Below are positions 9,001-45,439 of a stretch of 64,000 nt of DNA, piece after piece. Position 1 is the stretch's first letter; each line of letters opens with the position of its first letter. Source of the DNA: Pyropia yezoensis (taxonomy: Eukaryota; Rhodophyta; Bangiophyceae; Bangiales; Bangiaceae); NCBI GenBank assembly GCA_009829735.1, contig CM020618.1, forward strand, positions 15,790,846 through 15,854,845, read 5' to 3'. Both the position numbers and the translations under genes were made by a program. The notes under the pieces were generated by a model. The model made no database searches. It saw only the letters and a list, made by a program, of their open reading frames with translations, and was not told the DNA's origin.

Positions 9001-10634
9001 TCGTTCTCCGGTGGCCGGAGGAGGAAGGGTACGTCCACCGGGCGCTCAAGGTCTGGGACGAGGCGCTCAAGGGGGTCGGGAAGCTTGAACTGCGACCCCC
9101 GTCCGAGCATGGTCGCTCTGGAGCCGCCTTTCTTGACCCGGAAATACTCCAAGTTGTCGCCGGCACGGGAGCAGGGTGAGCGACGCGGCGTCAGCGTGAC
9201 TTCCTTGTGAGCTGCAACCACCAGGAGTTCTGGAAGCTGGACAAGGCTAACCGGGCGGCATACTACCCCAAGGTCATCCCGCAGCAGCAGGAAGTCGAGA
9301 TCCCCGGTCGGGTTTGCTCCTTCCAGCATCCCTTGCACCTGGTACTTCTTGGACGCCTTGACTCAGGCGTCGATCAAGGGCTTCTTCCACTCAATCCCGT
9401 ACATGATGTACACGTCCGAGATGACAGTCTTGGCGGCCAACCACTGGCTTCATGAGGTCTTGGTGTCCAACCGGCTTTGGTTTCTCCCTGACCTCCTGAT
9501 GGTCTGGATTGTCGACAAGTTGACCGTCGACTTCCTGTGCAGCCAGGACGAGGAGTACAAGGAGCTCTTCCAGGCGATGATCGACTTCCGGCGTCTGGTG
9601 CCGGTGCATGACCGGAACTTCTTGAACGCGATTGCCGACCAGAACCGCCCGCGTCGGGATGGCTTCGGTTGGGCGCAGGTGGTCTACCAGTCTTCTCCGG
9701 CCAAGGTGCAGCTGGCGACGCCGCTTCCGGCGTGGCCGCAGCTAGGTAGCTTTCCTGCTCCGGCCGCCCTTGATCTTCTGCCAGTTGGACCGCCGGTGCA
9801 GGAGTCGGGATGGGCCGCGGCGGTCGGTTCGGGCGTCTGCGGCGGCTCCACTTCCTCCGGTTGCCCCTGTCGCCCCGGTCGCCTCGCCTGAACCGTCACC
9901 GGCACGTCCGCGCCCTGTTCCGGCTGTGCCAGTACTTCAAGCTCCTCCGGCACCGCGCTTGTCTGCGGCGAGGTCTGGGAGTGGCCGTGCGGTCGCCGAT
10001 TACTCCGGCCGCTCTACCCCGGACGCCTTCTTCCAACGCCGGCGGCGCTGTGCCTCCGCTGGAGTTGGGTACTCCGGTCTCGGGGGCCGTTGTGGACCGT
10101 CCGGTAGTGTCATCCTCGGGCCGGTTCGAGATTCCGGCGCCGACTCTGCGCCTCACCCGCTTCCGGGTGCCTGACTGGTACCTGAACCAAGGTGGTCCAA
10201 CATGCGACCAGTACGACGTCGGCATGATTGAAGACCAGCTGGGTCGTCTTCCGGTGCAGGTTGAAGGCGTCGGGTCCTCTCTGGTGCTGGGTACTTACGC
10301 CAGCGTCTTGAACGACGTGGTCGACCGGGTGTTTGCTTGCGCGGACAGCGGCCAGATGTCGAACAACCCGGTGGTTGGCGAACTTCTGGCGACTTTGACG
10401 CGGCATGGCCTGGCCCAGCAGTGGTCAGAGACCTTCACGGGCTTCCAGCGGCGCCGACGGACATATCTGGATGAGCGGGAGCCACCGGCAACTACTGGTA
10501 CTACTCCGATGGCGTCATACCGGGATGCGCCGCGTCCACCGCACTACGTCATCCCGTCTTCCTCCGGTTCCCGTCGTACCGCGGAGGTAGCGCCGGAGGA
10601 CACTCCCGCGGCTCAGCGTCCGCGCCGAGAGTAG
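9001..10634 (+). pseudogene. A2a antisense accessory ORF, right copy (probable assembly duplicate)
   Basis: This repeats codons from about residue 165 to the stop of the antisense ORF. Compared with A2b it has at least five single-base indels, at about 9075, 9188, 9303, 9827 and 9972, nearly all in short G or C runs, which break the frame repeatedly. Such errors are typical of uncorrected long-read contig ends. The natural end of the ORF (Arg-Glu-stop) is at 10632-10634. The true element probably holds a single intact ORF here. Confidence 0.75.
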
Positions 10635-10779: not shown

Positions 10780-13700
10780 TCAATCCTCTTGTTCCGCATC
10801 CGTTGCGGGTGAGCTCGTCTCGTCCCCAGGGTCTTGGTTGGCCCCGTCCTCTTGGTCCTCCTCCGTGTCCGACTCCAGAATCTTGCCGGCTCTGGCCACG
10901 GGAGTGCCCTCAATCCCGTTCCGTCGCGTGTAGGCACAGACGTCCGCGATGGGTAGCCGGTTTGAGGGTTCCCATGTATCATCTGCTGGGTTAAAGCCGA
11001 ACCAGCGTACTCGCAGGTACAGGCGTCCATCTCTCCAGGCATGGTCGACAAACTTGACGTAGACAAATTCCCGACCTTCTTCTTGGGATAGCCAGGGTAT
11101 CGCAGTCCGCTTACGCCGGGTCAAGTCCCGTTGGCTTGGCGGTGGAGCTCGGGTGACATGGTCGCTGCTCACCCGGTACGGAGAGCCATCCACGTCTAGA
11201 AGGAAGGTCCAGCCATCCGTATTGAGAATCTCATAAGGTCCATCCGTCTTAGAGTCCAGCTTCCCCCGGGTCTTGCTATGGTTGTCCACAAAAACCCAGT
11301 CGCCACCACCCAGTTCCTTGTTCTTTTCCCGGACACCCTTGTCATAGTCCCGCTTGTATCGCTCCTGGGTCTTTGAGATTGACTCCTTGACTCTTGGGAG
11401 CAGGAGCTTTAGTTGTTCCAGGAACTCATCCTTTGCCTTGGGACCTGACTTCAGTGCAGGCTGGAGACCATCCGGTATTCTTTCCAGGGAGAAGTTGGTC
11501 AGCCGCCTTGGGGTGACAAAGTCGAGTGGAGCGACTCCCGTTGTCCGGTGAACTCGGGAGTTGTAGGCTAGAGTGAGGACAGCCAGGAGCTCGTCCCAGT
11601 CTTCTTGGTGCTCCTCCACGTAGTGCCGTAGCATGTCCACTAGGGTCCGGTTGAATCGTTCCACCTGACCGTTCGTTTGAGGGTGGTACGTCGTGGTGTA
11701 CAAGTTCTTGATGCCCATCAGGTCACAGACTCCTTGGAAGAACAGGGATGCAAACTGGGGACCGTTGTCGGTTAAGACGGAGTCTGGAGGGCCGTAGGCA
11801 GCTATCCAGTACTCGCAGAAGGCCGACGTGACATCCAGAGCCGTGATGGTTCTCAACGGGATTGCTCGAGTGAACTTGGAGAACCGGTCACAAATGATGA
11901 GCAGGTATATGTTGCCACTGGAGGTCTCAGGTAGGGGCCCCAGGATGTCCATGCTTAAGCTTGCAAAGGGCTCCGCCGCAGGGAATAGGCGTAGCTTAGA
12001 AGTCTTCTTCCTCTGGGACAACCGGTTCCTTGCACAAGAAATACAAGCCTCCAGGCACTTATGGACGTCACTGGCCATGGTTTCCCAGTAATAATGTCGT
12101 CTCATGGAAGCATACATCCGATTGATACCAGGATGCCCGGCCTGGGGAGACAAGTGCTCCAGGCGTAGGATGTCAGTCCGTAGACTCCGGGGTACGTAGA
12201 CTTGAGTTGCCCCATCGAAGGGTGACACCCGTACCAGGAGTCCGTCTGTAGACTCGGAGAAGCGACTGTTCCGGTTCAGGTCCATTTGGTGGCGAAGCTC
12301 CAAGCATTGAGGGTCCGTCAATTGTGCCTCCAGCATCCGGTGAATGGTTACCGGTTGATGAGCGTCAGGTGTCTCGTACAGGGGAGCGTGCCAGCCACGT
12401 CCGACATTCGGGAGGATGAAGCAAGGTATTTCCTCCGGGATAGGACCGGTATCGGCTGCAGGAGTCTCCAGCCTGGACATGGTGTCGGCGCAGTGGTGCT
12501 CCCTCCCTGCTCTGGTGCACACCTTGTACTTGAACTCCGAAAGGCGTAGGCGCCACCGGGCGACCCTTCCTTGACTGCTGTCCATGCATAGCAGCCACCT
12601 TAGACTGGCGTGGTCCGTCCGGATGAGGAACTCTTGTCCTTCAAGATATGGACGTAACAGGAAGCAAGCCCAGACGACCGCCAAGCACTCGCGCTCGGTC
12701 GTGGAATAGTTCTTCTCGGCTGGAGTCAAGACGCGACTGTAGTAGCCTATCGGGAGGAAGTGCCCATCAGGTTGTTGCTGGAGTAGTGAGCACCCCACCT
12801 GGACGCCACAGGCGTCAGTCTCCAGAACAACCTGACCCTCCCGCTTGGGTAACGCCAGTACTGGAGTGGTGGTCAGGCGCTTCTTGAGCTCTTCGAAGGC
12901 TGCTGTCTGCTTCTCGTCGAACACCGGGAGTTGTGCTGGAAGCTTCTTGCTAGTAAGCTTGGTCAAGGGCCGGGCAATCAGAGCGTAGTCCCGTACGAAC
13001 CGGCGGTAGACGTTGCACATACCCAGGAAGCTCTTGAGTTCCGTCTGGGTTTTAGGTTGCCGTGCATGCCGGAGGGCCTTGATGTTCTTCTCGTTGACTC
13101 GGAGCTCCCCCGGACTCAGCACGTGCCCCAGGTACTCCACCTCAGTCTCAAACAGGTGGCACTTCTCGGCCTTGAGGGTAACTCCAGCCTTGGACAGGAG
13201 GGCCAGGACCTCTCGAAGGTGCTCCAGGTGTTCCGCTGGGGTCTTGGAGAAAACAATGATGTCGTCCAGGTAGACCAAACATGTTCTCCACCTTAGCCCC
13301 GACAGGATGATGTCGATGGCTCTCTGGAAGGTTGCCGGAGCATTAGTGAGACCAAAAGGGAGACGCTTGCACCGGAACAGTCCCATGTGGCACGTGAAGG
13401 TAGTCTTGTCCTTGTCCTCGTCAGCCAGAGGGATCTGCCAGTAACCGGCATTACAATCCAGCGTCGAGAAGAGGGTGGCATCACCAAGAAAGTCGAGGCA
13501 ATCATCCATCCGGGGTATCGGGTATACATCCTTGACTGTCATCTCGTTCAGGCGTCTGTAGTCAACGCAGAAACGGAAGTGACCGCCAGGTTTCGGGACG
13601 ACTACCACCGGGAAAGCCCACTCGCCATCAGACGGCTCGATAACATCCATCTTGAGCATCTTGTTAACCTGCTTCTCAATCTCATCCCGGCGATGAGGTC

Positions 13701-14739
13701 CAGCCCGGTATGGTTGCATGTGCACTGGTTTGGCATCTGGCTTGAGTTGAATCCGGTGTAGGGTGGCGTCCATCTTGCCCAGCTCTCCGGACCACAGGTG
13801 CCGATATTCCTGGAGAAGCTTCTCCAGTGCCTCCTTCAAGTCGGGAGGGACGTTTTCTTGGTTGACCTTCGGCATCCCGGGCGGTGCTTGTTCGGGCTTC
13901 GGAGTAGTACGGCCAGCCTGCTCTTGTTCCGGAGATACGTCTAAGGCCGTCAAGTTGGATGCCAGCTCTTGTTGCAGGTTGAAGAGGTCTTCCTTGCTCA
14001 TAGCGCGGGCGGACCCCCGGTAAGGCTCTGCTGTACCAACTCGAGTGCCCTTGGCGAGGGTTATTGGCTTCCGGCTCACGTTGACGATCAGCACCGAGAA
14101 CGGGGTGTGCCTCTCCACCTTCTTGTGGTGTCCGTGGGCTAGGTATAATCGGTGTTTCGCCAGAAATTCCTTGCGTCCGTAGATCAGGCATTGACCTGCA
14201 GTCCGGGTCGTGACTTGAACCTTGGTCTCCGAGCGAGGAGGTAGGAGCACCGGTTTGATGAGGGTCAAGGTGGAGGGTGGGATGCGTTCCTTCTGGTTCT
14301 TGGCCACACGAACCTTGGTGTCCAGGTGCTCCAGCACTGGTGACACAACCCCATGGTTGAACTGCACCTTTCCTTCTCCGGGTAGGATGCTCTTGACATG
14401 CTGCTTCTGGAAGTCCCAGCCTAGGATGAGGGGGACTGATAAGGTCTTGACTACTAGAAAGGGAAAAAGCATTGGTTCATTGTTGACATAGATGGCGACG
14501 GGAAGACGGCCAAGCGGTCGTAGGGTTTGACCTGATGCGTCTACAATCCGGGTCTTGGTAGGCGCTCTCCAGGCATGTCGACGCCAGCCCGGAGGTAACA
14601 GGTTCTCAGTGATGACGCTTGGTCCGGCTCCCGTGTCGACCACCGGCGTAACAGCTTGGGGGAGGCTATCCCCCACACGCATACGAGCATTAATCTTGAG
14701 GTTTTCCTTACGCAGGACGAGCAAGGTCCCCTTGAACAA
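10780..14739 (-). CDS. pol: A2a pol polyprotein
   Basis: 1319 residues counted from the first possible start codon after gag; in vivo probably a -1 frameshift extension of gag. Domains in order: aspartic protease (DTGAG, about 35), reverse transcriptase (YLDD, about 490), RNase H (TDACGVQVG, about 640, and TDHASLRWL), integrase zinc-binding HHCC (about 862-905), integrase core (MDILGP about 930, TDNGPQF about 987, Glu in QVERFN about 1024), a GPY/F-type module (DGPYEI), and a C-terminal chromodomain (about 1225-1275, with LRVRWFGFNPADDTWEP). Chromodomains of chromoviruses direct integration to marked chromatin. No internal stop. It converges with the antisense ORF, with 145 bp between their stops. 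Confidence 0.93.
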   Translation of the reverse strand: MFKGTLLVLRKENLKINARMRVGDSLPQAVTPVVDTGAGPSVITENLLPPGWRRHAWRAPTKTRIVDASGQTLRPLGRLPVAIYVNNEPMLFPFLVVKTLSVPLILGWDFQKQHVKSILPGEGKVQFNHGVVSPVLEHLDTKVRVAKNQKERIPPSTLTLIKPVLLPPRSETKVQVTTRTAGQCLIYGRKEFLAKHRLYLAHGHHKKVERHTPFSVLIVNVSRKPITLAKGTRVGTAEPYRGSARAMSKEDLFNLQQELASNLTALDVSPEQEQAGRTTPKPEQAPPGMPKVNQENVPPDLKEALEKLLQEYRHLWSGELGKMDATLHRIQLKPDAKPVHMQPYRAGPHRRDEIEKQVNKMLKMDVIEPSDGEWAFPVVVVPKPGGHFRFCVDYRRLNEMTVKDVYPIPRMDDCLDFLGDATLFSTLDCNAGYWQIPLADEDKDKTTFTCHMGLFRCKRLPFGLTNAPATFQRAIDIILSGLRWRTCLVYLDDIIVFSKTPAEHLEHLREVLALLSKAGVTLKAEKCHLFETEVEYLGHVLSPGELRVNEKNIKALRHARQPKTQTELKSFLGMCNVYRRFVRDYALIARPLTKLTSKKLPAQLPVFDEKQTAAFEELKKRLTTTPVLALPKREGQVVLETDACGVQVGCSLLQQQPDGHFLPIGYYSRVLTPAEKNYSTTERECLAVVWACFLLRPYLEGQEFLIRTDHASLRWLLCMDSSQGRVARWRLRLSEFKYKVCTRAGREHHCADTMSRLETPAADTGPIPEEIPCFILPNVGRGWHAPLYETPDAHQPVTIHRMLEAQLTDPQCLELRHQMDLNRNSRFSESTDGLLVRVSPFDGATQVYVPRSLRTDILRLEHLSPQAGHPGINRMYASMRRHYYWETMASDVHKCLEACISCARNRLSQRKKTSKLRLFPAAEPFASLSMDILGPLPETSSGNIYLLIICDRFSKFTRAIPLRTITALDVTSAFCEYWIAAYGPPDSVLTDNGPQFASLFFQGVCDLMGIKNLYTTTYHPQTNGQVERFNRTLVDMLRHYVEEHQEDWDELLAVLTLAYNSRVHRTTGVAPLDFVTPRRLTNFSLERIPDGLQPALKSGPKAKDEFLEQLKLLLPRVKESISKTQERYKRDYDKGVREKNKELGGGDWVFVDNHSKTRGKLDSKTDGPYEILNTDGWTFLLDVDGSPYRVSSDHVTRAPPPSQRDLTRRKRTAIPWLSQEEGREFVYVKFVDHAWRDGRLYLRVRWFGFNPADDTWEPSNRLPIADVCAYTRRNGIEGTPVARAGKILESDTEEDQEDGANQDPGDETSSPATDAEQED

Positions 14740-14839: not shown

Positions 14840-14880
14840 GGGAAGACACTTGGGGAGAGCGCCTGCCCTACTCGTTTCCC
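14840..14880 (-). promoter_or_regulatory. -1 frameshift signal of A2a
   Basis: Minus-strand heptamer GGGAAAC at 14874-14880, then GAG TAG and a hairpin with arms about 14858-14868 and 14840-14850. It matches the A1 signal except for one A-U to G-U change in the stem. Confidence 0.8.
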
Positions 14881-16628
14881 GGCTCCGAGGAGTCCTTAGA
14901 GGTTTCGGTCTCCAGGTCAAAGTCCGTAGGAGCTTCCCTTGCCAGAGCCTCCGTGATGCTCTGTAAGGTTGCCACTCGGATGGCATGTACCTGTGCCTTG
15001 TCCATCTTGGAGGGTGCCCGCCGGTCAGCCCAGTTGACCGCCTTTGCAAACACCAGTCCTTGACGCTTGAGTTTCTCCTGGAGATCCTCGGGAATGGTCG
15101 GGCACTGGTAGGACATATGATCCTCCTTCTGGCACAGCCAGCAAGACCGGAACCGCTGGTTCCTGATCTGCTTGGGGGCGACCAGGGAAGGTTGCTCCTT
15201 AGAAACGAAGCCGCCCCACTTGTCCCTTGACTCCATGGGTGAGGCCTCGCCAACTGCGAGTACCGGTACAGGGTTATCACCTCCCTTATACTTGTCGGGT
15301 CCGGGACGAACTCGCGACAACGGCTTGGGGGTTGATACCATAGGAGCCTGGAGGGCCTTGGCTTGCCGGTGCTTGCCCTGGGTATAGGCCATCAACTGCT
15401 GGAAGGTATGTTCTTGATGTTCCTGGTTGTAGTTCTCCGCATCCACTTGAAGATATTCAGGAAGCCCCTCCGAGAAGATCATCTTGAGCCTGTCCTCAGG
15501 GTAAACGTTGCCACAAGCATCGCTCATCTCCCGGACACGACGGGCGAACGCCTCTGGAGTCTCTTGTCTCTCCATGGTTGCCCGGTTCAGCCTACCGACT
15601 GCCTTACGCAGGGAGTCCGCGTCTGCGTAGTTGGACAGGAGCCAGTTGACCGCCTCCGGATAACTCGCGACGGTACGTCCAACAATGTGCCCGGCAGAGT
15701 CTGGTAGAACCTGTGCAAACCGCTGTTCCGCTTCTCCGGTCATGAAGTTAACCAGGAGATAGAGAGCCTTGCCCTCGGACACATCGTTGTCATTGCATGC
15801 CTTGACAAACCGGCGCAGGAAGGCAAAGATAAGCGCCGGTCTCTTCCCGGAAAACTTAGGATGCCCCCCAAAGCTCGGCTGCATTCGCCGGTTCAGGGAT
15901 GCCATCTTCTTGGCCATCTTCCGGGTGTAACCTTGGTCTTGGTTCTCCAGCCGGTAGTTACCCCAATACGTGACCTTGTTCAGGGTGGCATCTCCCACTT
16001 GGTGGGCAGGGAAGTCGAACTCGACTAGCCTGCGCCGGGTAGGACCGGGAGATGCATCCCAGTCATATCCCTCCTCAGAGCTGGAGGAACTGGTCTCGCT
16101 GGTGCTAGAGCGGCGGCGACGACGCCGACGCCTACGGCTGCTCCGGTCACCGGTCTTGGAGCTCCCCGCCCCATAGGACGCAAGGGGAGGAAAAGCTTGG
16201 CCGGTCCCAGGAGTTGAAGTCTCAGGAAGACCCGTAGAACCAGTCATAGCGGTGCCTCTGGCACTGCTAGTGCCCACAGGAAGAGGTGTATACACCCAGC
16301 TGCCATGTGTGGGTCCAGGAGTAAACACACCAGGGGCTATCCCTGGAGGTTGAAGAGTAGGACCGACAGGAGGGAGACGTCTGCTGCGAGCGGACTCAAA
16401 CGCCGTTGACCCCGGGGTGGCTCCCACAGGAGGAACAGCCGGAGGAACGGGAGCAGGGGGTACTTGGCCGCCTGTAGACTCCAGTCCACTACCGGATGTC
16501 CCGCCCAGGTCTGCTTCACCCGTAGGGAGAACGCCGGGTTGGGCACCGTCCCCCGCGGTGACCAGGGATGCGTCAAGGGACGCGGGGTCTACCCCTTCGG
16601 GCACCGTCGTGCCAGGGAGGGTAGCCAT
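14868..16628 (-). CDS. gag: A2a gag polyprotein
   Basis: 586 residues, the same length and domain order as A1 gag: Pro/Thr-rich start, Arg-rich run with Ser/Glu cluster, capsid region, and CWLCQKEDHMSYQC zinc knuckle. It differs from A1 by a few substitutions, such as Asn for Ser before the RRMQ motif. ATG at 16628 in the same CCAACATGG context. Its stop lies inside the frameshift cassette, and pol follows in the -1 frame. Confidence 0.93.
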   Translation of the reverse strand: MATLPGTTVPEGVDPASLDASLVTAGDGAQPGVLPTGEADLGGTSGSGLESTGGQVPPAPVPPAVPPVGATPGSTAFESARSRRLPPVGPTLQPPGIAPGVFTPGPTHGSWVYTPLPVGTSSARGTAMTGSTGLPETSTPGTGQAFPPLASYGAGSSKTGDRSSRRRRRRRRRSSTSETSSSSSEEGYDWDASPGPTRRRLVEFDFPAHQVGDATLNKVTYWGNYRLENQDQGYTRKMAKKMASLNRRMQPSFGGHPKFSGKRPALIFAFLRRFVKACNDNDVSEGKALYLLVNFMTGEAEQRFAQVLPDSAGHIVGRTVASYPEAVNWLLSNYADADSLRKAVGRLNRATMERQETPEAFARRVREMSDACGNVYPEDRLKMIFSEGLPEYLQVDAENYNQEHQEHTFQQLMAYTQGKHRQAKALQAPMVSTPKPLSRVRPGPDKYKGGDNPVPVLAVGEASPMESRDKWGGFVSKEQPSLVAPKQIRNQRFRSCWLCQKEDHMSYQCPTIPEDLQEKLKRQGLVFAKAVNWADRRAPSKMDKAQVHAIRVATLQSITEALAREAPTDFDLETETSKDSSEPGNE

Positions 16629-16837: not shown

Positions 16838-17410
16838 TGTGGTATAAAACTCGATCCTCTCAGACACGTGTCAATATCCCTCGGGGGAAAGGGACAGGTA
16901 ACGCAGAAAGGGGAACTACGAGAATGGTATGCCTGTTGCCTCACGTGCCTGCTCGCAGGGCAAACAGATACGCACGGTAGTGCACACGGGGAAGAGGAAA
17001 GCAAACGCGCAGTTGTCTTTTTCCCTGAGGGCGCGGGCCGAGGGCGCCTCGCTGTCCCTCTTAACGTGCATCTGGGGGAACCCCGGCACGTTGGCCCGGT
17101 AGCCCCCCCCATAACCCCGAGTGGCCCCGACCCGAGTCTAACCTCGTCAGGTCGGGGGCCACTATCACTACTAATTCTATTCCCACTCACTAATCTCACA
17201 CTCAAATTCTCTCAAATCAAGTCCCTCACAAATATGCAAAAACACATCAGAAATCCCTCTCTCGCGTGTGGATAGCGTAGTCCACCGCATCCCAGTGCCG
17301 GGCACGGGCCACGGCCGCCAACCATCGCCACACGGCGGGCGTGTTCTGGCACCTGGTGCCCTCTGGTTGCAGTCCCGGGTCGGCGCCAAGTCGGGGCCAG
17401 GGATGCTACA
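16838..17410 (-). repeat. Shared middle LTR of the A2 array
   Basis: 573-bp inverted family A LTR with a primer-binding site on its left and the PPT of A2b on its right (GGGAGGGAGCTA read on the minus strand). No target duplication flanks it. Confidence 0.92.
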
Positions 17411-17594: not shown

Positions 17595-19712
17595 ATGTCC
17601 AGTTCCGAGATCCAAGCTGGGCCCGTGGTTCCGGCGGCGAGTGTTGCGGAGGAGAACTCGGGTCGTCGTGCCCCTCTCCTGCCTCCGGTTCCTCGGATGT
17701 CGGTGCCGGCGCCGGTCGCCACGGCGGGGACGGATCGAGTTCCCCCGGCTTCCGCGATGCACCCGGTCGAGGCCCCCCCGGAGGGTCTCCCGGAGATGCT
17801 CCTTGGGCAGGACCCTCTGGCGGCCCGGCGTTACTCCACGGTGGTCGGCAACGCCGGCGCGGCCCAGTGCCAGCAGGATTGCATGGACCTCTGGCGCAAG
17901 GAACTCCAGCGCGGGGTCTTGACCGAGATGGACAAGGCACGTCTTCATACGGCGGACCAGATGCGCCTGGCACAAGACCGCTCCCAGAGCTTCTCGGGTT
18001 CCTCTTGGGCTGCTCGTCTGGAGGATCTCCCCTTCGCGCTGGTACTGGATCTACCCCTGACCGAGCGTCGCGTGTCCGCGTCCGTTCTCCGGTGGCCGGA
18101 GGAGGAAGGGTACGTCCACCGGGCGCTCAAGGTCTGGGACGAGGCGCTCAAGGGGTCGGGAAGCTTGAACTGCGACCCCCGTCCGAGCATGGTCGCTCTG
18201 GAGCCGCCTTTCTTGACCCGGAAATACTCCAAGTTGTCGCCGGCACGGGAGCAGGGTGAGCGACGCGGGCGTCAGCGTGACTTCCTCGTGAGCTGCAACC
18301 ACCAGGAGTTCTGGAAGCTGGACAAGGCTAACCGGGCGGCGTACTACCCCAAGGTCATCCCGCAGCAGCAGGAAGTCGAGATCCCGGTCGGGTTTGCTCC
18401 TTCCAGCATCCCTTGCACCTGGTACTTCTTGGACGCCTTGACTCAGGCGTCGATCAAGGGCTTCTTCCACTCAATCCCGTACATGATGTACACGTCCGAG
18501 ATGACAGTCTTGGCGGCCAACCACTGGCTTCATGAGGTCTTGGTGTCCAACCGGCTTTGGTTTCTCCCTGACCTCCTGATGGTCTGGATTGTCGACAAGT
18601 TGACCGTCGACTTCCTGTGCAGCCAGGACGAGGAGTACAAGGAGCTCTTCCAGGCGATGATCGACTTCCGGCGTCTGGTGCCGGTGCATGACCGGAACTT
18701 CTTGAACGCGATTGCCGACCAGAACCGCCCGCGTCGGGATGGCTTCGGTTGGGCGCAGGTGGTCTACCAGTCTTCTCCGGCCAAGGTGCAGCTGGCGACG
18801 CCGCTTCCGGCGTGGCCGCAGCTAGGTAGCTTTCCTGCTCCGGCCGCCCTTGATCTTCGGCCAGTTGGACCGCCGGTGCAGGAGTCGGGATGGGCCGCGG
18901 CGGTCGGTCGGGCGTCTGCGGCGGCTCCACTTCCTCCGGTTGCCCCTGTCGCCCCGGTCGCCTCGCCTGAACCGTCACCGGCACGTCCGCGCCCTGTTCC
19001 GGCTGTGCCAGTACTTCAAGCTCCTCCGGCACCGCGCTTGTCTGCGGCGAGTCTGGGAGTGGCCGTGCGGTCGCCGATTACTCCGGCCGCTCTACCCCGG
19101 ACGCCTTCTTCCAACGCCGGCGGCGCTGTGCCTCCGCTGGAGTTGGGTACTCCGGTCTCGGGGGCCGTTGTGGACCGTCCGGTAGTGTCATCCTCGGGCC
19201 GGTTCGAGATTCCGGCGCCGACTCTGCGCCTCACCCGCTTCCGGGTGCCTGACTGGTACCTGAACCAAGGTGGTCCAACATGCGACCAGTACGACGTCGG
19301 CATGATTGAAGACCAGCTGGGTCGTCTTCCGGTGCAGGTTGAAGGCGTCGGGTCCTCTCTGGTGCTGGGTACTTACGCCAGCGTCTTGAACGACGTGGTC
19401 GACCGGGTGTTTGCTTGCGCGGACAGCGGCCAGATGTCGAACAACCCGGTGGTTGGCGAACTTCTGGCGACTTTGACGCGGCATGGCCTGGCCCAGCAGT
19501 GGTCAGAGACCTTCACGGGCTTCCAGCGGCGCCGACGGACATATCTGGATGAGCGGGAGCCACCGGCAACTACTGGTACTACTCCGATGGCGTCATACCG
19601 GGATGCGCCGCGTCCACCGCACTACGTCATCCCGTCTTCCTCCGGTTCCCGTCGTACCGCGGAGGTAGCGCCGGAGGACACTCCCGCGGCTCAGCGTCCG
19701 CGCCGAGAGTAG
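17595..19712 (+). CDS. A2b antisense accessory ORF, intact reference copy
   Basis: 705 residues on the strand opposite to gag and pol, between pol and the 3' LTR. Function unknown. Visible layout: Pro/Ser/Ala-rich start; a mixed alpha-helical core at about 60-400 with FLVSCNHQEFW, AAYYPKVIPQQQEVEIPVGF and an aromatic helical stretch (NHWLHEVL, LWFLPDLLMVWIVDKL); a Pro/Ala/Val-rich linker at about 430-560; and a C-terminal helical domain at about 570-660 ending in a basic QRRRRTYLDE segment. No signal peptide, transmembrane span, zinc finger or nucleotide-binding motif is evident. The core aligns by eye with the antisense ORF of family B (LVTSAQLEF, QYYPKKPEWWPQVEVPYGF, ATKWLLEV, LWHLPLRL). 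The frame stays open upstream into the LTR (from 17268), so an LTR-initiated form is possible; ATG 17595 is the first after the purine tract and starts all family A copies. Confidence 0.85.
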   Translation: MSSSEIQAGPVVPAASVAEENSGRRAPLLPPVPRMSVPAPVATAGTDRVPPASAMHPVEAPPEGLPEMLLGQDPLAARRYSTVVGNAGAAQCQQDCMDLWRKELQRGVLTEMDKARLHTADQMRLAQDRSQSFSGSSWAARLEDLPFALVLDLPLTERRVSASVLRWPEEEGYVHRALKVWDEALKGSGSLNCDPRPSMVALEPPFLTRKYSKLSPAREQGERRGRQRDFLVSCNHQEFWKLDKANRAAYYPKVIPQQQEVEIPVGFAPSSIPCTWYFLDALTQASIKGFFHSIPYMMYTSEMTVLAANHWLHEVLVSNRLWFLPDLLMVWIVDKLTVDFLCSQDEEYKELFQAMIDFRRLVPVHDRNFLNAIADQNRPRRDGFGWAQVVYQSSPAKVQLATPLPAWPQLGSFPAPAALDLRPVGPPVQESGWAAAVGRASAAAPLPPVAPVAPVASPEPSPARPRPVPAVPVLQAPPAPRLSAASLGVAVRSPITPAALPRTPSSNAGGAVPPLELGTPVSGAVVDRPVVSSSGRFEIPAPTLRLTRFRVPDWYLNQGGPTCDQYDVGMIEDQLGRLPVQVEGVGSSLVLGTYASVLNDVVDRVFACADSGQMSNNPVVGELLATLTRHGLAQQWSETFTGFQRRRRTYLDEREPPATTGTTPMASYRDAPRPPHYVIPSSSGSRRTAEVAPEDTPAAQRPRRE

Positions 19713-19857: not shown

Positions 19858-22800
19858 TCAATCCTCTTGTTCCGCATCCGTTGCGGGTGAGCTCGTCTCG
19901 TCCCCAGGGTCTTGGTTGGCCCCGTCCTCTTGGTCCTCCTCCGTGTCCGACTCCAGAATCTTGCCGGCTCTGGCCACGGGAGTGCCCTCAATCCCGTTCC
20001 GTCGCGTGTAGGCACAGACGTCCGCGATGGGTAGCCGGTTTGAGGGTTCCCATGTATCATCTGCTGGGTTAAAGCCGAACCAGCGTACTCGCAGGTACAG
20101 GCGTCCATCTCTCCAGGCATGGTCGACAAACTTGACGTAGACAAATTCCCGACCTTCTTCTTGGGATAGCCAGGGTATCGCAGTCCGCTTACGCCGGGTC
20201 AAGTCCCGTTGGCTTGGCGGTGGAGCTCGGGTGACATGGTCGCTGCTCACCCGGTACGGAGAGCCATCCACGTCTAGAAGGAAGGTCCAGCCATCCGTAT
20301 TGAGAATCTCATAAGGTCCATCCGTCTTAGAGTCCAGCTTCCCCCGGGTCTTGCTATGGTTGTCCACAAAAACCCAGTCGCCACCACCCAGTTCCTTGTT
20401 CTTTTCCCGGACACCCTTGTCATAGTCCCGCTTGTATCGCTCCTGGGTCTTTGAGATTGACTCCTTGACTCTTGGGAGCAGGAGCTTTAGTTGTTCCAGG
20501 AACTCATCCTTTGCCTTGGGACCTGACTTCAGTGCAGGCTGGAGACCATCCGGTATTCTTTCCAGGGAGAAGTTGGTCAGCCGCCTTGGGGTGACAAAGT
20601 CGAGTGGAGCGACTCCCGTTGTCCGGTGAACTCGGGAGTTGTAGGCTAGAGTGAGGACAGCCAGGAGCTCGTCCCAGTCTTCTTGGTGCTCCTCCACGTA
20701 GTGCCGTAGCATGTCCACTAGGGTCCGGTTGAATCGTTCCACCTGACCGTTCGTTTGAGGGTGGTACGTCGTGGTGTACAAGTTCTTGATGCCCATCAGG
20801 TCACAGACTCCTTGGAAGAACAGGGATGCAAACTGGGGACCGTTGTCGGTTAAGACGGAGTCTGGAGGGCCGTAGGCAGCTATCCAGTACTCGCAGAAGG
20901 CCGACGTGACATCCAGAGCCGTGATGGTTCTCAACGGGATTGCTCGAGTGAACTTGGAGAACCGGTCACAAATGATGAGCAGGTATATGTTGCCACTGGA
21001 GGTCTCAGGTAGGGGCCCCAGGATGTCCATGCTTAAGCTTGCAAAGGGCTCCGCCGCAGGGAATAGGCGTAGCTTAGAAGTCTTCTTCCTCTGGGACAAC
21101 CGGTTCCTTGCACAAGAAATACAAGCCTCCAGGCACTTATGGACGTCACTGGCCATGGTTTCCCAGTAATAATGTCGTCTCATGGAAGCATACATCCGAT
21201 TGATACCAGGATGCCCGGCCTGGGGAGACAAGTGCTCCAGGCGTAGGATGTCAGTCCGTAGGCTCCGGGGTACGTAGACTTGAGTTGCCCCATCGAAGGG
21301 TGACACCCGTACCAGGAGTCCGTCTGTAGACTCGGAGAAGCGACTGTTCCGGTTCAGGTCCATTTGGTGGCGAAGCTCCAAGCATTGAGGGTCCGTCAAT
21401 TGTGCCTCCAGCATCCGGTGAATGGTTACCGGTTGATGAGCGTCAGGTGTCTCGTACAGGGGAGCGTGCCAGCCACGTCCGACATTCGGGAGGATGAAGC
21501 AAGGTATTTCCTCCGGGATAGGACCGGTATCGGCTGCAGGAGTCTCCAGCCTGGACATGGTGTCGGCGCAGTGGTGCTCCCTCCCTGCTCTGGTGCACAC
21601 CTTGTACTTGAACTCCGAAAGGCGTAGGCGCCACCGGGCGACCCTTCCTTGACTGCTGTCCATGCATAGCAGCCACCTTAGACTGGCGTGGTCCGTCCGG
21701 ATGAGGAACTCTTGTCCTTCAAGATATGGACGTAACAGGAAGCAAGCCCAGACGACCGCCAAGCACTCGCGCTCGGTCGTGGAATAGTTCTTCTCGGCTG
21801 GAGTCAAGACGCGACTGTAGTAGCCTATCGGGAGGAAGTGCCCATCAGGTTGTTGCTGGAGTAGTGAGCACCCCACCTGGACGCCACAGGCGTCAGTCTC
21901 CAGAACAACCTGACCCTCCCGCTTGGGTAACGCCAGTACTGGAGTGGTGGTCAGGCGCTTCTTGAGCTCTTCGAAGGCTGCTGTCTGCTTCTCGTCGAAC
22001 ACCGGGAGTTGTGCTGGAAGCTTCTTGCTAGTAAGCTTGGTCAAGGGCCGGGCAATCAGAGCGTAGTCCCGTACGAACCGGCGGTAGACGTTGCACATAC
22101 CCAGGAAGCTCTTGAGTTCCGTCTGGGTTTTAGGTTGCCGTGCATGCCGGAGGGCCTTGATGTTCTTCTCGTTGACTCGGAGCTCCCCCGGACTCAGCAC
22201 GTGCCCCAGGTACTCCACCTCAGTCTCAAACAGGTGGCACTTCTCGGCCTTGAGGGTAACTCCAGCCTTGGACAGGAGGGCCAGGACCTCTCGAAGGTGC
22301 TCCAGGTGTTCCGCTGGGGTCTTGGAGAAAACAATGATGTCGTCCAGGTAGACCAAACATGTTCTCCACCTTAGCCCCGACAGGATGATGTCGATGGCTC
22401 TCTGGAAGGTTGCCGGAGCATTAGTGAGACCAAAAGGGAGACGCTTGCACCGGAACAGTCCCATGTGGCACGTGAAGGTAGTCTTGTCCTTGTCCTCGTC
22501 AGCCAGAGGGATCTGCCAGTAACCGGCATTACAATCCAGCGTCGAGAAGAGGGTGGCATCACCAAGAAAGTCGAGGCAATCATCCATCCGGGGTATCGGG
22601 TATACATCCTTGACTGTCATCTCGTTCAGGCGTCTGTAGTCAACGCAGAAACGGAAGTGACCGCCAGGTTTCGGGACGACTACCACCGGGAAAGCCCACT
22701 CGCCATCAGACGGCTCGATAACATCCATCTTGAGCATCTTGTTAACCTGCTTCTCAATCTCATCCCGGCGATGAGGTCCAGCCCGGTATGGTTGCATGTG

Positions 22801-23817
22801 CACTGGTTTGGCATCTGGCTTGAGTTGAATCCGGTGTAGGGTGGCGTCCATCTTGCCCAGCTCTCCGGACCACAGGTGCCGATATTCCTGGAGAAGCTTC
22901 TCCAGTGCCTCCTTCAAGTCGGGAGGGACGTTTTCTTGGTTGACCTTCGGCATCCCGGGCGGTGCTTGTTCCGGCTTCGGAGTAGTACGGCCAGCCTGCT
23001 CTTGTTCCGGAGATACGTCTAAGGCCGTCAAGTTGGATGCCAGCTCTTGTTGCAGGTTGAAGAGGTCTTCCTTGCTCATAGCGCGGGCGGACCCCCGGTA
23101 AGGCTCTGCTGTACCAACTCGAGTGCCCTTGGCGAGGGTTATTGGCTTCCGGCTCACGTTGACGATCAGCACCGAGAACGGGGTGTGCCTCTCCACCTTC
23201 TTGTGGTGTCCGTGGGCTAGGTATAATCGGTGTTTCGCCAGAAATTCCTTGCGTCCGTAGATCAGGCATTGACCTGCAGTCCGGGTCGTGACTTGAACCT
23301 TGGTCTCCGAGCGAGGAGGTAGGAGCACCGGTTTGATGAGGGTCAAGGTGGAGGGTGGGATGCGTTCCTTCTGGTTCTTGGCCACACGAACCTTGGTGTC
23401 CAGGTGCTCCAGCACTGGTGACACAACCCCATGGTTGAACTGCACCTTTCCTTCTCCGGGTAGGATGCTCTTGACATGCTGCTTCTGGAAGTCCCAGCCT
23501 AGGATGAGGGGGACTGATAAGGTCTTGACTACTAGAAAGGGAAAAAGCATTGGTTCATTGTTGACATAGATGGCGACGGGAAGACGGCCAAGCGGTCGTA
23601 GGGTTTGACCTGATGCGTCTACAATCCGGGTCTTGGTAGGCGCTCTCCAGGCATGTCGACGCCAGCCCGGAGGTAACAGGTTCTCAGTGATGACGCTTGG
23701 TCCGGCTCCCGTGTCGACCACCGGCGTAACAGCTTGGGGGAGGCTATCCCCCACACGCATACGAGCATTAATCTTGAGGTTTTCCTTACGCAGGACGAGC
23801 AAGGTCCCCTTGAACAA
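19858..23817 (-). CDS. pol: A2b pol polyprotein
   Basis: 1319 residues, essentially identical to the A2a protein. Protease DTGAG, reverse transcriptase YLDD, RNase H, integrase HHCC and D-D-E residues and the chromodomain are all intact. Few differences from A2a are visible at the DNA level, for example one base near 21261 and one near 22972. The C-terminal tail after the chromodomain is acidic (SDTEEDQEDG). The protein is expected as a Gag-Pol fusion by -1 frameshifting and then cleaved by its own protease. The stop lies 145 bp from the stop of the convergent antisense ORF. Confidence 0.93.
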   Translation of the reverse strand: MFKGTLLVLRKENLKINARMRVGDSLPQAVTPVVDTGAGPSVITENLLPPGWRRHAWRAPTKTRIVDASGQTLRPLGRLPVAIYVNNEPMLFPFLVVKTLSVPLILGWDFQKQHVKSILPGEGKVQFNHGVVSPVLEHLDTKVRVAKNQKERIPPSTLTLIKPVLLPPRSETKVQVTTRTAGQCLIYGRKEFLAKHRLYLAHGHHKKVERHTPFSVLIVNVSRKPITLAKGTRVGTAEPYRGSARAMSKEDLFNLQQELASNLTALDVSPEQEQAGRTTPKPEQAPPGMPKVNQENVPPDLKEALEKLLQEYRHLWSGELGKMDATLHRIQLKPDAKPVHMQPYRAGPHRRDEIEKQVNKMLKMDVIEPSDGEWAFPVVVVPKPGGHFRFCVDYRRLNEMTVKDVYPIPRMDDCLDFLGDATLFSTLDCNAGYWQIPLADEDKDKTTFTCHMGLFRCKRLPFGLTNAPATFQRAIDIILSGLRWRTCLVYLDDIIVFSKTPAEHLEHLREVLALLSKAGVTLKAEKCHLFETEVEYLGHVLSPGELRVNEKNIKALRHARQPKTQTELKSFLGMCNVYRRFVRDYALIARPLTKLTSKKLPAQLPVFDEKQTAAFEELKKRLTTTPVLALPKREGQVVLETDACGVQVGCSLLQQQPDGHFLPIGYYSRVLTPAEKNYSTTERECLAVVWACFLLRPYLEGQEFLIRTDHASLRWLLCMDSSQGRVARWRLRLSEFKYKVCTRAGREHHCADTMSRLETPAADTGPIPEEIPCFILPNVGRGWHAPLYETPDAHQPVTIHRMLEAQLTDPQCLELRHQMDLNRNSRFSESTDGLLVRVSPFDGATQVYVPRSLRTDILRLEHLSPQAGHPGINRMYASMRRHYYWETMASDVHKCLEACISCARNRLSQRKKTSKLRLFPAAEPFASLSMDILGPLPETSSGNIYLLIICDRFSKFTRAIPLRTITALDVTSAFCEYWIAAYGPPDSVLTDNGPQFASLFFQGVCDLMGIKNLYTTTYHPQTNGQVERFNRTLVDMLRHYVEEHQEDWDELLAVLTLAYNSRVHRTTGVAPLDFVTPRRLTNFSLERIPDGLQPALKSGPKAKDEFLEQLKLLLPRVKESISKTQERYKRDYDKGVREKNKELGGGDWVFVDNHSKTRGKLDSKTDGPYEILNTDGWTFLLDVDGSPYRVSSDHVTRAPPPSQRDLTRRKRTAIPWLSQEEGREFVYVKFVDHAWRDGRLYLRVRWFGFNPADDTWEPSNRLPIADVCAYTRRNGIEGTPVARAGKILESDTEEDQEDGANQDPGDETSSPATDAEQED

Positions 23818-23917: not shown

Positions 23918-23958
23918 GGGAAGACACTTGGGGAGAGCGCCTGCCCTACTCGTTTCCC
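23918..23958 (-). promoter_or_regulatory. -1 frameshift signal of A2b
   Basis: Heptamer GGGAAAC at 23952-23958 (minus strand), then GAG TAG (stop at 23946-23948) and the same hairpin as in A2a down to 23918. Confidence 0.8.
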
Positions 23959-25706
23959 GGCTCCGAGGAGTCCTTAGAGGTTTCGGTCTCCAGGTCAAAG
24001 TCCGTAGGAGCTTCCCTTGCCAGAGCCTCCGTGATGCTCTGTAAGGTTGCCACTCGGATGGCATGTACCTGTGCCTTGTCCATCTTGGAGGGTGCCCGCC
24101 GGTCAGCCCAGTTGACCGCCTTTGCAAACACCAGTCCTTGACGCTTGAGTTTCTCCTGGAGATCCTCGGGAATGGTCGGGCACTGGTAGGACATATGATC
24201 CTCCTTCTGGCACAGCCAGCAAGACCGGAACCGCTGGTTCCTGATCTGCTTGGGGGCGACCAGGGAAGGTTGCTCCTTAGAAACGAAGCCGCCCCACTTG
24301 TCCCTTGACTCCATGGGTGAGGCCTCGCCAACTGCGAGTACCGGTACAGGGTTATCACCTCCCTTATACTTGTCGGGTCCGGGACGAACTCGCGACAACG
24401 GCTTGGGGGTTGATACCATAGGAGCCTGGAGGGCCTTGGCTTGCCGGTGCTTGCCCTGGGTATAGGCCATCAACTGCTGGAAGGTATGTTCTTGATGTTC
24501 CTGGTTGTAGTTCTCCGCATCCACTTGAAGATATTCAGGAAGCCCCTCCGAGAAGATCATCTTGAGCCTGTCCTCAGGGTAAACGTTGCCACAAGCATCG
24601 CTCATCTCCCGGACACGACGGGCGAACGCCTCTGGAGTCTCTTGTCTCTCCATGGTTGCCCGGTTCAGCCTACCGACTGCCTTACGCAGGGAGTCCGCGT
24701 CTGCGTAGTTGGACAGGAGCCAGTTGACCGCCTCCGGATAACTCGCGACGGTACGTCCAACAATGTGCCCGGCAGAGTCTGGTAGAACCTGTGCAAACCG
24801 CTGTTCCGCTTCTCCGGTCATGAAGTTAACCAGGAGATAGAGAGCCTTGCCCTCGGACACATCGTTGTCATTGCATGCCTTGACAAACCGGCGCAGGAAG
24901 GCAAAGATAAGCGCCGGTCTCTTCCCGGAAAACTTAGGATGCCCCCCAAAGCTCGGCTGCATTCGCCGGTTCAGGGATGCCATCTTCTTGGCCATCTTCC
25001 GGGTGTAACCTTGGTCTTGGTTCTCCAGCCGGTAGTTACCCCAATACGTGACCTTGTTCAGGGTGGCATCTCCCACTTGGTGGGCAGGGAAGTCGAACTC
25101 GACTAGCCTGCGCCGGGTAGGACCGGGAGATGCATCCCAGTCATATCCCTCCTCAGAGCTGGAGGAACTGGTCTCGCTGGTGCTAGAGCGGCGGCGACGA
25201 CGCCGACGCCTACGGCTGCTCCGGTCACCGGTCTTGGAGCTCCCCGCCCCATAGGACGCAAGGGGAGGAAAAGCTTGGCCGGTCCCAGGAGTTGAAGTCT
25301 CAGGAAGACCCGTAGAACCAGTCATAGCGGTGCCTCTGGCACTGCTAGTGCCCACAGGAAGAGGTGTATACACCCAGCTGCCATGTGTGGGTCCAGGAGT
25401 AAACACACCAGGGGCTATCCCTGGAGGTTGAAGAGTAGGACCGACAGGAGGGAGACGTCTGCTGCGAGCGGACTCAAACGCCGTTGACCCCGGGGTGGCT
25501 CCCACAGGAGGAACAGCCGGAGGAACGGGAGCAGGGGGTACTTGGCCGCCTGTAGACTCCAGTCCACTACCGGATGTCCCGCCCAGGTCTGCTTCACCCG
25601 TAGGGAGAACGCCGGGTTGGGCACCGTCCCCCGCGGTGACCAGGGATGCGTCAAGGGACGCGGGGTCTACCCCTTCGGGCACCGTCGTGCCAGGGAGGGT
25701 AGCCAT
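23946..25706 (-). CDS. gag: A2b gag polyprotein
   Basis: 586 residues, the same as A2a gag in length and all visible motifs (Arg-rich run, capsid region, CCHC knuckle). Together with pol and the antisense ORF it makes A2b the most complete family A unit in the window, with no frameshift, nonsense codon or gap. Confidence 0.93.
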   Translation of the reverse strand: MATLPGTTVPEGVDPASLDASLVTAGDGAQPGVLPTGEADLGGTSGSGLESTGGQVPPAPVPPAVPPVGATPGSTAFESARSRRLPPVGPTLQPPGIAPGVFTPGPTHGSWVYTPLPVGTSSARGTAMTGSTGLPETSTPGTGQAFPPLASYGAGSSKTGDRSSRRRRRRRRRSSTSETSSSSSEEGYDWDASPGPTRRRLVEFDFPAHQVGDATLNKVTYWGNYRLENQDQGYTRKMAKKMASLNRRMQPSFGGHPKFSGKRPALIFAFLRRFVKACNDNDVSEGKALYLLVNFMTGEAEQRFAQVLPDSAGHIVGRTVASYPEAVNWLLSNYADADSLRKAVGRLNRATMERQETPEAFARRVREMSDACGNVYPEDRLKMIFSEGLPEYLQVDAENYNQEHQEHTFQQLMAYTQGKHRQAKALQAPMVSTPKPLSRVRPGPDKYKGGDNPVPVLAVGEASPMESRDKWGGFVSKEQPSLVAPKQIRNQRFRSCWLCQKEDHMSYQCPTIPEDLQEKLKRQGLVFAKAVNWADRRAPSKMDKAQVHAIRVATLQSITEALAREAPTDFDLETETSKDSSEPGNE

Positions 25707-25915: not shown

Positions 25916-26488
25916 TGTGGTATAAAACTCGATCCTCTCAGACACGTGTCAATATCCCTCGGGGGAAAGGGACAGGTAACGCAGAAAGGGGAACTACGAG
26001 AATGGTATGCCTGTTGCCTCACGTGCCTGCTCGCAGGGCAAACAGATACGCACGGTAGTGCACACGGGGAAGAGGAAAGCAAACGCGCAGTTGTCTTTTT
26101 CCCTGAGGGCGCGGGCCGAGGGCGCCTCGCTGTCCCTCTTAACGTGCATCTGGGGGAACCCCGGCACGTTGGCCCGGTAGCCCCCCCCATAACCCCGAGT
26201 GGCCCCGACCCGAGTCTAACCTCGTCAGGTCGGGGGCCACTATCACTACTAATTCTATTCCCACTCACTAATCTCACACTCAAATTCTCTCAAATCAAGT
26301 CCCTCACAAATATGCAAAAACACATCAGAAATCCCTCTCTCGCGTGTGGATAGCGTAGTCCACCGCATCCCAGTGCCGGGCACGGGCCACGGCCGCCAAC
26401 CATCGCCACACGGCGGGCGTGTTCTGGCACCTGGTGCCCTCTGGTTGCAGTCCCGGGTCGGCGCCAAGTCGGGGCCAGGGATGCTACA
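25916..26488 (-). repeat. LTR of A2b (5')
   Basis: 573-bp inverted LTR, the right boundary of the A2 array; followed directly by the CTACG duplication. Confidence 0.93.
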
Positions 26489-26493
26489 CTACG
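26489..26493 (+). repeat. Target site duplication of A2 array, right copy
   Basis: CTACG, matching 5647-5651. Confidence 0.9.
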
Positions 26494-28697
26494 CTCTGAT
26501 TGCCCGGCCCTTGACCAAGCTTACTAGCAAGAAGCTTCCAGCACAACTCCCGGTGTTCGACGAGAAGCAGACAGCAGCCTTCGAAGAGCTCAAGAAGCGC
26601 CTGACCACCACTCCAGTACTGGCGTTACCCAAGCGGGAGGGCCAGTTTGTTCTGGAGACTGATGCCTGTGGCGTCCAGGTGGGGTGCTCACTACTCCAGC
26701 AGCAACCTGATGGGCACTTCCTCCCGATAGGCTACTACAGTCGCGTCTTGACTCCAGCCGAGAAGAACTATTCCACGACCGAGCGCGAGTGCTTGGCGGT
26801 CGTCTGGGCTTGCTTCCTGTTACGTCCATATCTTGAAGGACAAGAGTTCCTCATCCGGACGGACCACGCCAGTCTAAGGTGGCTGCTATGCATGGACAGC
26901 AGTCAAGGAAGGGTCGCCCGGTGGCGCCTACGCCTTTCGGAGTTCAAGTACAAGGTGTGCACCAGAGCAGGGAGGGAGCACCACTGCGCCGACACCATGT
27001 CCAGGCTGGAGACCCCCGCAGCCGATACCGGTCCTATCCCGGAGGAAATACCTTGCTTTATCCTCCCGAATGTCGGACGTGGCTGGCACGCTCCCCTGTA
27101 CGAGACACCTGACGCTCATCAACCGGTAACCATTCACCGGATGCTGGAGGCACAATTGACGGACCCTCAATGCTTGGAGCTTCGCCACCAAATGGACCTG
27201 AACCGGAACAGTCGCTTCTCCGAGTCTACAGACGGACTCCTGGTACGGGTGTCACCCTTCGATGGGGCAACTCAAGTTTACGTACCCCGAAGTCTACGAG
27301 CTGACATCCTACGCCTGGAGCACTCGTCTCCCCAGGCCGGACATCCTGGTATCAATCGGATGTATGCTTCCATGAGACGACATTATTACTGGGAAACCAT
27401 GGCCAGTGACGTCCATAAGTGCCTGGAGGCTTGTATTTCTTGTGCAAGGAACCGGTTGTCCCCGAGGAAGAAGACTTCTAAGCTACGCCTATTCCCTGCG
27501 GCGGAGCCCTTTGCAAGCTTAAGCATGGACATCCTGGGGCCCCTACCTGAAACATCCAGTGGCAACATATACCTGCTCATCATTTGTGACCGGTTCTCCA
27601 AGTTCACTCGAGCAATCCCGCTGAGGACCATCACGGCTCTGGATGTCACGTCAGCCTTCTGCGAGTACTGGATAGCTGCCTATGGCCCTCCAGACTCCGT
27701 CTTAACCGACAACGGTCCCCAGTTTGCATCCCTGTTCTTCCAAGGAGTCTGTGACCTGATGGGCATCAAGAACTTGTACACCACGACGTACCACCCTCAA
27801 ACGAACGGCCAGGTGGAACGATTCAACCGGACCCTAGTGGACATGCTACGGCACTACGTGGAGGAGCACCAAGAAGACTGGGACGAGCTCCTGGCTGTCC
27901 TCACTCTAGCCTACAACTCCCGAGTTCACCGGACAACGGGAGTCGCTCCACTCGACTTTGTCACCCCAAGGCGGCTGACCAACTTCTCCCTGGAAAGAAT
28001 ACCGGATGGTCTCCAGCCTGCACTGAAGTCAGGTCCCAAGGCAAAGGATGAGTTCCTGGAACAACTAAAGCTCCTGCTCCCAAGAGTCAAGGAGTCAATC
28101 TCAAAGACCCAGGAGCGATACAAGCGGGACTATGACAAGGGTGTCCGGGAAAAGAACAAGGAACTGGGTGGTGGCGACTGGGTTTTTGTGGACAACCATA
28201 GCAAGACCCGGGGGAAGCTGGACTCTAAGACGGATGGACCTTATGAGATTCTCAATACGGATGGCTGGACCTTCCTTCTAGACGTGGATGGCTCTCCGTA
28301 CCGGGTGAGCAGCGACCATGTCACCCGAGCTCCACCGCCAAGCCAGCGGGACTTGACCCGGCGCAAGCGGACTGCGATACCCTGGCTATCCCCAGAAGAA
28401 GGCCGGGAGTATGCCTACGTCAAGTTTGTCGACCATGCCTGGAGAGATGGACGCCTGTACCTGCGAGTACGCTGGTTCGGTTTTAACCCGGCAGATGATA
28501 CATGGGAACCCTCAAACCGGCTACCCATCGCGGACGTCTGTGCCTACACGCGACGGAACGGGATTGAGGGCACTCCAATGGCCAGAGCCGGCAAGATTCT
28601 GGAGTCGGACACGGAGGAGGACCAAGAGGACGGGGCCAACCAAGACCCTCGGGACGAGACGAGCTCACCCGCAACGGATGCGGAACAAGAGGATTGA
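26494..28697 (+). pseudogene. pol: A1 pol, 3' part: RNase H, integrase, chromodomain
   Basis: Continues the A1 pol frame interrupted at 5651; the two parts total 1320 codons including the stop, exactly the length of A2 pol. It carries the RNase H motif TDACGVQVG and TDHASLRWL, integrase HHCC (HSSPQAGHPGINRMY ... CISCARNR), MDILGP, TDNGPQF and QVERFN, the GPY/F-type module and a chromodomain. The coding sequence itself is open; it is inactive because the A2 array separates it from the protease and reverse transcriptase. Small differences from A2 (for example YAYVKF for FVYVKF in the chromodomain) show that A1 and A2 are separate family members. Confidence 0.9.
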
Positions 28698-31726: not shown

Positions 31727-31731
31727 AGCAG
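31727..31731 (+). repeat. Target site duplication of A1, right copy
   Basis: AGCAG; B1 gag resumes immediately afterwards. Confidence 0.9.
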
Positions 31732-45301: not shown

Positions 45302-45439
45302 ATGGGGACGAGGAGAGGCGGCCGACTTGGCTTGGTGCTTCTCCTTTCCGGACTTCGGGTCGCTACTTGCGCCCGCGTTGAGGGTGACCGCTACTGCCGG
45401 TCCCTCATGTTGGTCGATATAGCCGAGCTTGGCTCCCGA

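Follow-up and report, generated by a model that had tools for sequence, protein, structure and literature searches.

Open reading frames (ORFs) that lie in antisense orientation between pol and the 3' LTR, termed aORF-3R, occur as additional genes in LTR retrotransposons of plants and fungi, including Grande with its gene23, RIRE2, PvRetro13 and Boty, and constitute a reviewed class whose function is not known (PMC7264820). In addition, antisense transcripts of LTR elements can exert regulation via dsRNA (PMC7264820). For Retand, which excerpts of one report describe as non-chromoviral and found only in flowering plants, the same excerpts state that 97% of recent clusters contain TRP28 ORFs in antisense orientation (PMC11963269). 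With regard to algae, portions of two reports place the green-algal chromodomain elements in the Chlamyvir clade (PMC3350952) and describe an opposite-strand accessory gene in a DNA transposon of Ectocarpus (PMC12477816), and portions of two further papers contributed nothing decisive (PMC12786077, PMC2864245).

A comparable arrangement is found in the red alga Pyropia yezoensis, in a stretch of 64,000 nucleotides (here called the window) from a 107.5-Mb assembly that comprises 11 contigs. Two diverged Ty3/gypsy families, A and B, carry a long ORF (aORF) on the strand opposite to gag and pol. The original prediction that this ORF represents an undescribed system was overstated, since the antisense slot was already known, while the protein family itself appears to be new: titles and abstracts in the searched literature, whose coverage leaves most subscription journals outside, contained no description of it.

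Organization of the nested elements

The window is composed of nested Ty3/gypsy elements. B1, on the forward strand, spans positions ~505-40389, with its 5' LTR at 505..972 and its 3' LTR at 39922..40389 (454 of 467 aligned positions identical), and inspection of its ends by eye revealed no matching 5-bp target duplication. Within B1 sits A1 (1226-31726, also forward), whose LTRs at 1226..1797 and 31155..31726 are identical at 571 of 572 positions, which points to recent activity of family A, and which is bounded by the 5-bp duplication AGCAG (1221-1225 and 31727-31731). Two further A elements, A2 and A3, form an array on the opposite strand that interrupts the pol of A1 at 5651/26489; beyond the array the 3' part of this pol resumes (26489..28697, forward). 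This array (5652-26488), bounded by the target duplication CTACG at 5647-5651 and 26489-26493, has the order LTR-internal-LTR-internal-LTR, in which the 3' LTR of A2 (5652..6225), an LTR common to A2 and A3 that forms the 3' LTR of A3 (16838..17410) and the 5' LTR of A3 (25916..26488) all lie on the reverse strand, and the two LTRs of A3 agree at 573 of 573 positions. The internal regions of A2 and A3 are nearly identical (0 differences in gag, 2 in pol), and the tandem could be due to tandem insertion, later recombination or assembly. On the reverse strand, gag and pol of A2 are located at 14868..16628 and 10780..14739, and those of A3 at 23946..25706 (586 aa; the A2 copy, identical to it, gave a weak match to a zinc knuckle) and 19858..23817 (1319 aa, identical to the A2 copy at the protein level). 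A putative primer-binding site, TGGTGGAGCAGCAGGGG, is common to A and B.

The sequence contains a run of 500 N at 8501-9000, whose two flanks match one another at 99.5% along 1.6 kb (within 6898-10606), and frame breaks stand near this gap; the repeat probably represents overlapping contig ends or another assembly artefact rather than a real duplication.

A second B element, B2, runs on the reverse strand from 41445 to ~46136 and retains the antisense ORF, whereas most of its gag and pol is gone; its 3' LTR lies at 41445..41912, and a pol remnant with the chromodomain-like end is present at 44306..45439, 111 bp from the aORF stop. B2 appears as a deletion derivative, with a 5' LTR remnant (45992-46136) that has 56-bp inverted arms. 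A second primer-binding site stands outside its 3' LTR at 41425-41444, and 1 kb (40390-41424) lies between this site and the end of B1. Farther downstream, an open frame of 893 residues (47516-50194, forward) gave a weak Pfam match to CxC4, a KDZ transposase-associated domain, below the cut-off (E=0.066), and the region 58000-64000, with a G+C content of 76-83%, contains many overlapping open frames, two of which were scanned against Pfam and had no match.

Pol of A and B is 46% identical and gag 29%. Pol shows the order protease-RT-RNase H-integrase, as in Ty3/gypsy chromoviruses; in A (scanned on the A2 copy) RVT_1, RNase H and integrase exceeded the Pfam cut-offs, and RVP reached 19.6 bits relative to a cut-off of 20.7. 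Matches to Chromo at the C-terminal end of pol, in A2 (E=4.5e-4, 20.5 bits) and B2 (E=3.9e-4, 20.7 bits), were likewise under the cut-off of 25.1, and the region is referred to here as chromodomain-like. In the pol of B1 (33541..37416, forward) it is interrupted by a TAG stop, and the similarity runs on to ~37500.

A long antisense reading frame

In both families the aORF lies opposite to gag and pol, between pol and the 3' LTR, a location that had been predicted and is now supported by LTRs in both families and by the 5-bp target duplications in A. The aORF of A comprises 705-708 codons, ends 145 bp from the end of the convergent pol and starts ~180 bp from the LTR; that of B is separated from pol by a 111-bp spacer and starts ~340 bp from the LTR. 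Intact copies are present, as originally described, in A3 (17595..19712, forward, 705 aa) and A1 (28843..30969, reverse, 708 aa, with an in-frame insertion of 3 residues relative to A3), whereas both B copies of the window, although reported as ORFs as well, are damaged, that of B1 (37636..39583, reverse) by indels that break the frame and that of B2 (42251..44194, forward) by a single in-frame stop. The supposed single ORF at 6410-10634 in A2 consists instead of a first part, 6410..8500 (forward), which has a frame shift near 8215 and is cut by the 500 N, and a second part past the gap, 9002..10634 (forward), the start of which repeats 6898-8500, likely as a contig overlap. The protein motifs that had been named occur in the order given, with one correction, namely that the gap from YYPK to (Q/E)VE amounts to 6 residues rather than 4.

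Across the genome, the eight A loci that were fetched (L001-L008), among them the copy from the window, all have a frame open over 705 codons, and 27 of 29 fetched B loci are open over 647 codons, the remaining two carrying one TAG each (L010-L038). Only one of the six frames of A3 is open over this stretch, and the others contain 8-19 stops each; among 400 random first-order Markov sequences of equal length, one had an open run of at least 477 codons and none had one of 705. As to the promoter of its own that had been proposed for the aORF, a TATAAA occurs once on the aORF strand of the A LTR and not in that of B, and no promoter was identified, the scan used being one for bacterial promoters. 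The 231 bp in frame 5' of the chosen ATG of B also gave a dN/dS of 0.31, which makes the start codon in B uncertain.

Coding signal and selection in families A and B

Comparison of copies by dN/dS, which had been named beforehand as a check, gave values far below 1 in both families. Between the aORFs of A1 and A3 dN/dS was 0.13, with 32 substitutions distributed over codon positions as 4, 7 and 21 (Fisher p=6e-8), and a 9-nt in-frame indel separates the A copies; between B1 and B2 it was 0.22, with 98 substitutions distributed as 18, 22 and 58 (p=7e-13), and for the B pair L018/L009 it was 0.125. For comparison, A pol had values of 0.10-0.11, A gag 0.30 and the B pol end 0.29, and the A2/A3 pair was too similar for the test. 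Within the protein, the core of A differs by 3 synonymous and 0 nonsynonymous changes; dN/dS in the remaining parts of A and B lies between 0.13 and 0.51. In A and B the aORF frame was also the best fit to codon usage trained on gag and pol.

Similarity between the A and B proteins

In BLASTP the two proteins match each other with E=5e-8 (as a single comparison) and with a local score of 136 relative to a maximum of 88 among 500 shuffles; profile to profile, the match has an E value of 6e-5 over 145 columns and a probability of 65%. This similarity resides in a core, and the N- and C-terminal parts alone did not exceed shuffles.

Because the aORF might owe its conservation to the opposite strand, the possibility of a shadow of sense-strand similarity, raised together with the original prediction, was considered, and no significant similarity was found between sense-strand frames of A and B. 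After SEG filtering and composition correction, E was 2.9e-6 for the aORF frames and 0.083 for the next best pairing. Without these, the raw score of sense frames 2/2 (140) exceeded that of the aORF frames (136), but 200 shuffles of that frame averaged 148, so that the score reflects composition; sense frames 2/1 scored 125 and their shuffles up to 143. Sense frame 1 had a low dN/dS (0.18 in A and 0.28 in B) but contains 11-25 stops, and its low values result from the coincidence of its third positions with those of the aORF.

Copies and further families in the genome

Copies of A and B were counted by matches to the aORF itself, and the numbers are lower bounds biased to good copies, because they represent the best-first part of a larger set of candidates. 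For full-length A at least 63 matches were scored, and 63 of 63 among the matches listed were without stops; the corresponding figures are at least 150 and 148 of 150 for the A core, at least 76 and 74 of 76 for B searched via P0002 (a database relative, see below), and at least 150 and 148 of 150 for the B core.

At least 150 chromodomains in the genome scored higher than the ones of A and B in a Pfam Chromo search, and several of the matches listed have open frames of more than 1100 codons. The 3' regions of eight other chromodomain elements (L039-L046), searched with all five aORFs (those of A, B and the families C, D and E below) and a core profile, held no aORF of their own (0 of 8; runner-up profile score E=0.41), and the one related ORF, which resembles B and was found at L044 (419 aa; E=3e-10 in BLASTP), lies in a neighbouring element of family C.

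The C protein had 103 matches in the genome, many of them at 30-50% identity and a good part with stops. At nine of ten C loci (L047-L056; not seen in L049) a gypsy pol on the opposite strand follows downstream, 37-47% identical to the pol of A and B. Eight of the nine loci L048-L056 (L055 being without it) share the same TGTAGTGG edge ~1.33 kb 5' of the aORF start, with unrelated flanks, and this one edge fits, as expected, what the outer end of a 3' LTR would look like. In family D (L057-L060) a convergent opposite-strand gypsy pol, 43-55% identical to that of A and B, is present at three of four loci, and at the fourth B gag/pol follows instead. The placement of the aORF is based on both LTRs in A and B, on the shared TG edge in C and only on the convergent pol in D. 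Family E (L061-L064, L065) is a repeat of at least ~4 kb with copies 91-97% identical that carries the aORF core; no A/B-like pol was detected in 4.2-4.6 kb at four of its loci or in 7.1 kb at one of them, and within the sequence fetched its ORF does not lie antisense to a gag or pol.

Selection differed among the additional families, for which, as for the B pair L018/L009, the pairs were hand-picked and mostly open copies. Four C pairs had dN/dS values of 0.35, 0.46, 0.54 and 0.50 (Fisher p>0.05 in two of the four). In D the pair L058/L059 gave 0.31 (p=1e-10) and L059/L060, over the first 450 codons, 0.87, and two E pairs gave 0.74 and 0.85. Constraint is thus evident for A, B and one pair of D and moderate for C, and none could be detected for E. 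A selected protein-coding frame common to diverged gypsy families, as had been predicted, is supported, in two families with both LTRs and two with a convergent pol.

Family membership and protein architecture

In leave-one-out comparisons with full-length profiles against 10,000 shuffles, B, C, D and E were each recovered by the others (4e-40, 1e-56, 2e-47 and 5e-44, respectively), and with the full-length B-E profile A was not among the top 3 against 10,000 shuffles. With a profile built from the B-E cores alone, A was found with an E value of 1.1e-9, and none of 5000 shuffles did better than 0.66; trimming A to the core region gave 1.1e-10 to 1.2e-10, against 0.0095 and 0.16 for the best shuffles, and the hhalign probability was 92.6%. 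The match of the core profile over ~155 residues makes A a divergent member of the family. By eye, and with approximate gaps, B-E share the pattern E...R....Q.E......(Y/C)P..P.WW..(V/L/Y)E(V/I)P.G(M/F)....GS...A....WL..V....(L/A)W, from which A departs at several positions and in which P0002 has R at the first W of WW. A second block near the C-terminus is common to C and D (BLASTP E=6e-5), has a counterpart in A and B by eye only and is missing from E. Identity between families is 16-35% in the core (227 columns) and 39-46% at the C-terminal end of pol of A-D (165 columns).

On a composition scale the A and B proteins consist of a disordered N-terminus, an ordered core, a proline-rich linker, an ordered C-terminal part and a disordered tail. 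The tail is arginine-rich in B, and the absence of such a tail from C and D argues against nucleic-acid binding as a feature of the family. An Env-like ORF was rejected as an interpretation, the frame being antisense and its best 19-residue hydropathy (1.54 in A and 1.23 in B) giving no clear sign of a membrane segment. Pfam scans of the A, B, C, D and E aORFs yielded nothing above the cut-off, with sub-threshold matches at 0.14 and 0.16, and NCBIfam and PHROGs had no match to A and P0002, the two proteins scanned. The PDB contained no credible match; its best hit (E=0.005), between the A linker and a Rieske presequence, is likely a matter of composition, and the others had E values of 0.48 or weaker. 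In protein databases the sole relatives were the near-identical P0001 (ENA) and P0002 (Logan), and no relatives were found among viral contigs, prokaryote genome contigs, plasmids and phages, collections that are mostly viral or prokaryotic.

Discussion

The explanation that we favour, with slightly less than even confidence, is that the aORF encodes a trans-acting regulatory accessory protein which the Ty3/gypsy elements keep for their own spread. The protein would be supplied by a separate antisense transcript, a requirement that would follow from the antisense gene being unreadable from the genomic RNA, and the convergent layout with its short spacers would fit two transcripts ending against each other. 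It might then act in trans on the cycle of the element, in RNA handling, in the handling of the pre-integration complex or in transcription, a role modelled on proposals for plant aORF-3R proteins and for retroviral accessory proteins.

A somewhat unlikely alternative, yet the one that fares best, is an anti-silencing factor acting in trans, in which case the selection on the aORF would reflect host defence instead of a replication step. The A and B copies are numerous, alike and, among the matches listed, mostly open, and the stronger divergence of the core than of the C-terminal end of pol would be expected under conflict with the host. However, high divergence is seen in gag too (29% identity between A and B), and no silencing-suppression domain was found. 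Also to be weighed, though unlikely, is a structural rather than a regulatory role, in which the protein would help the particle or Gag, as could be suggested by the Gag-like outline of the A and B proteins and by the arginine-rich tail of B; profile comparison, however, revealed no similarity to Gag of A or B (probability 0.1%), and a separate antisense transcript would be an odd route for the supply of a structural protein. We consider it improbable that the aORF is a captured host gene which is carried along and dispensable for the element, since its position and orientation agree between diverged families and constraint continues in A and B. Family E, in which the core is present and no A/B-like pol was detected, would fit such an origin, but its copies are themselves repeats and two pairs look unconstrained, so that E resembles a derivative more than a source. 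That only the antisense RNA matters and the ORF is incidental, as the action of LTR-element antisense transcripts through dsRNA (PMC7264820) would allow, is largely refuted and hardly credible given the codon-position bias, the dN/dS values, the in-frame indel between A copies and a protein conservation across families that has no significant counterpart in sense frames.

Returning to the accessory protein kept for the elements' own spread, a wider and rather tentative proposal is that an undescribed protein family has stayed in the antisense slot between pol and 3' LTR while a Ty3/gypsy lineage radiated into at least four families (with pol ends 39-46% identical), and that it arose independently of the plant TRP28 and the REM1 inverse ORFs. 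The most successful families of this genome would require it in order to spread, as a trans regulator or anti-silencing factor from its own antisense transcript, and it would have been taken along by the repeat E, in which no pol was detected. One compact genome here combines evident selection on the protein, numerous young copies with open frames and several families that have diverged, so that the conserved residues can be defined and the need for the gene is directly testable.

Like the plant and fungal aORF-3R, with which the comparison is by description only, the aORFs of A and B are antisense to gag and pol, occupy the slot between pol and the 3' LTR and encode a conserved protein; they differ in that the present proteins belong to no Pfam family above the cut-off and that the present pol has a chromodomain-like end. 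REM1 of Chlamydomonas reinhardtii, reportedly presented by Perez-Alegre et al. in 2005, is said to be a Ty3/gypsy element with an ORF in inverse orientation that contains a PHD finger. According to part of a later account, the reverse-frame module of REM1 keeps GPY/F and a chromodomain (PMC2774666). The element, from a green alga, is thus likewise Ty3/gypsy with an inverse ORF, whereas the present aORFs contain neither a Pfam chromodomain nor a PHD, and integrase and the chromodomain-like end are here found in pol. The TRP28/Transposase_28 ORF of Retand has, as far as the excerpts of that report go, the same position and orientation and is common to many families of one lineage (PMC11963269). 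In contrast to Retand, the scanned A, B, C, D and E proteins had no match to PF04195, and a genome-wide search for PF04195 gave 0 matches, as did its search controls.

In summary, the protein family looks new as far as the searched libraries go, while the structural slot that it occupies is already known from plants and fungi. The comparison suggests that unrelated proteins have come to lie in the same antisense slot across lineages, a pattern that would lend significance to the slot as such.
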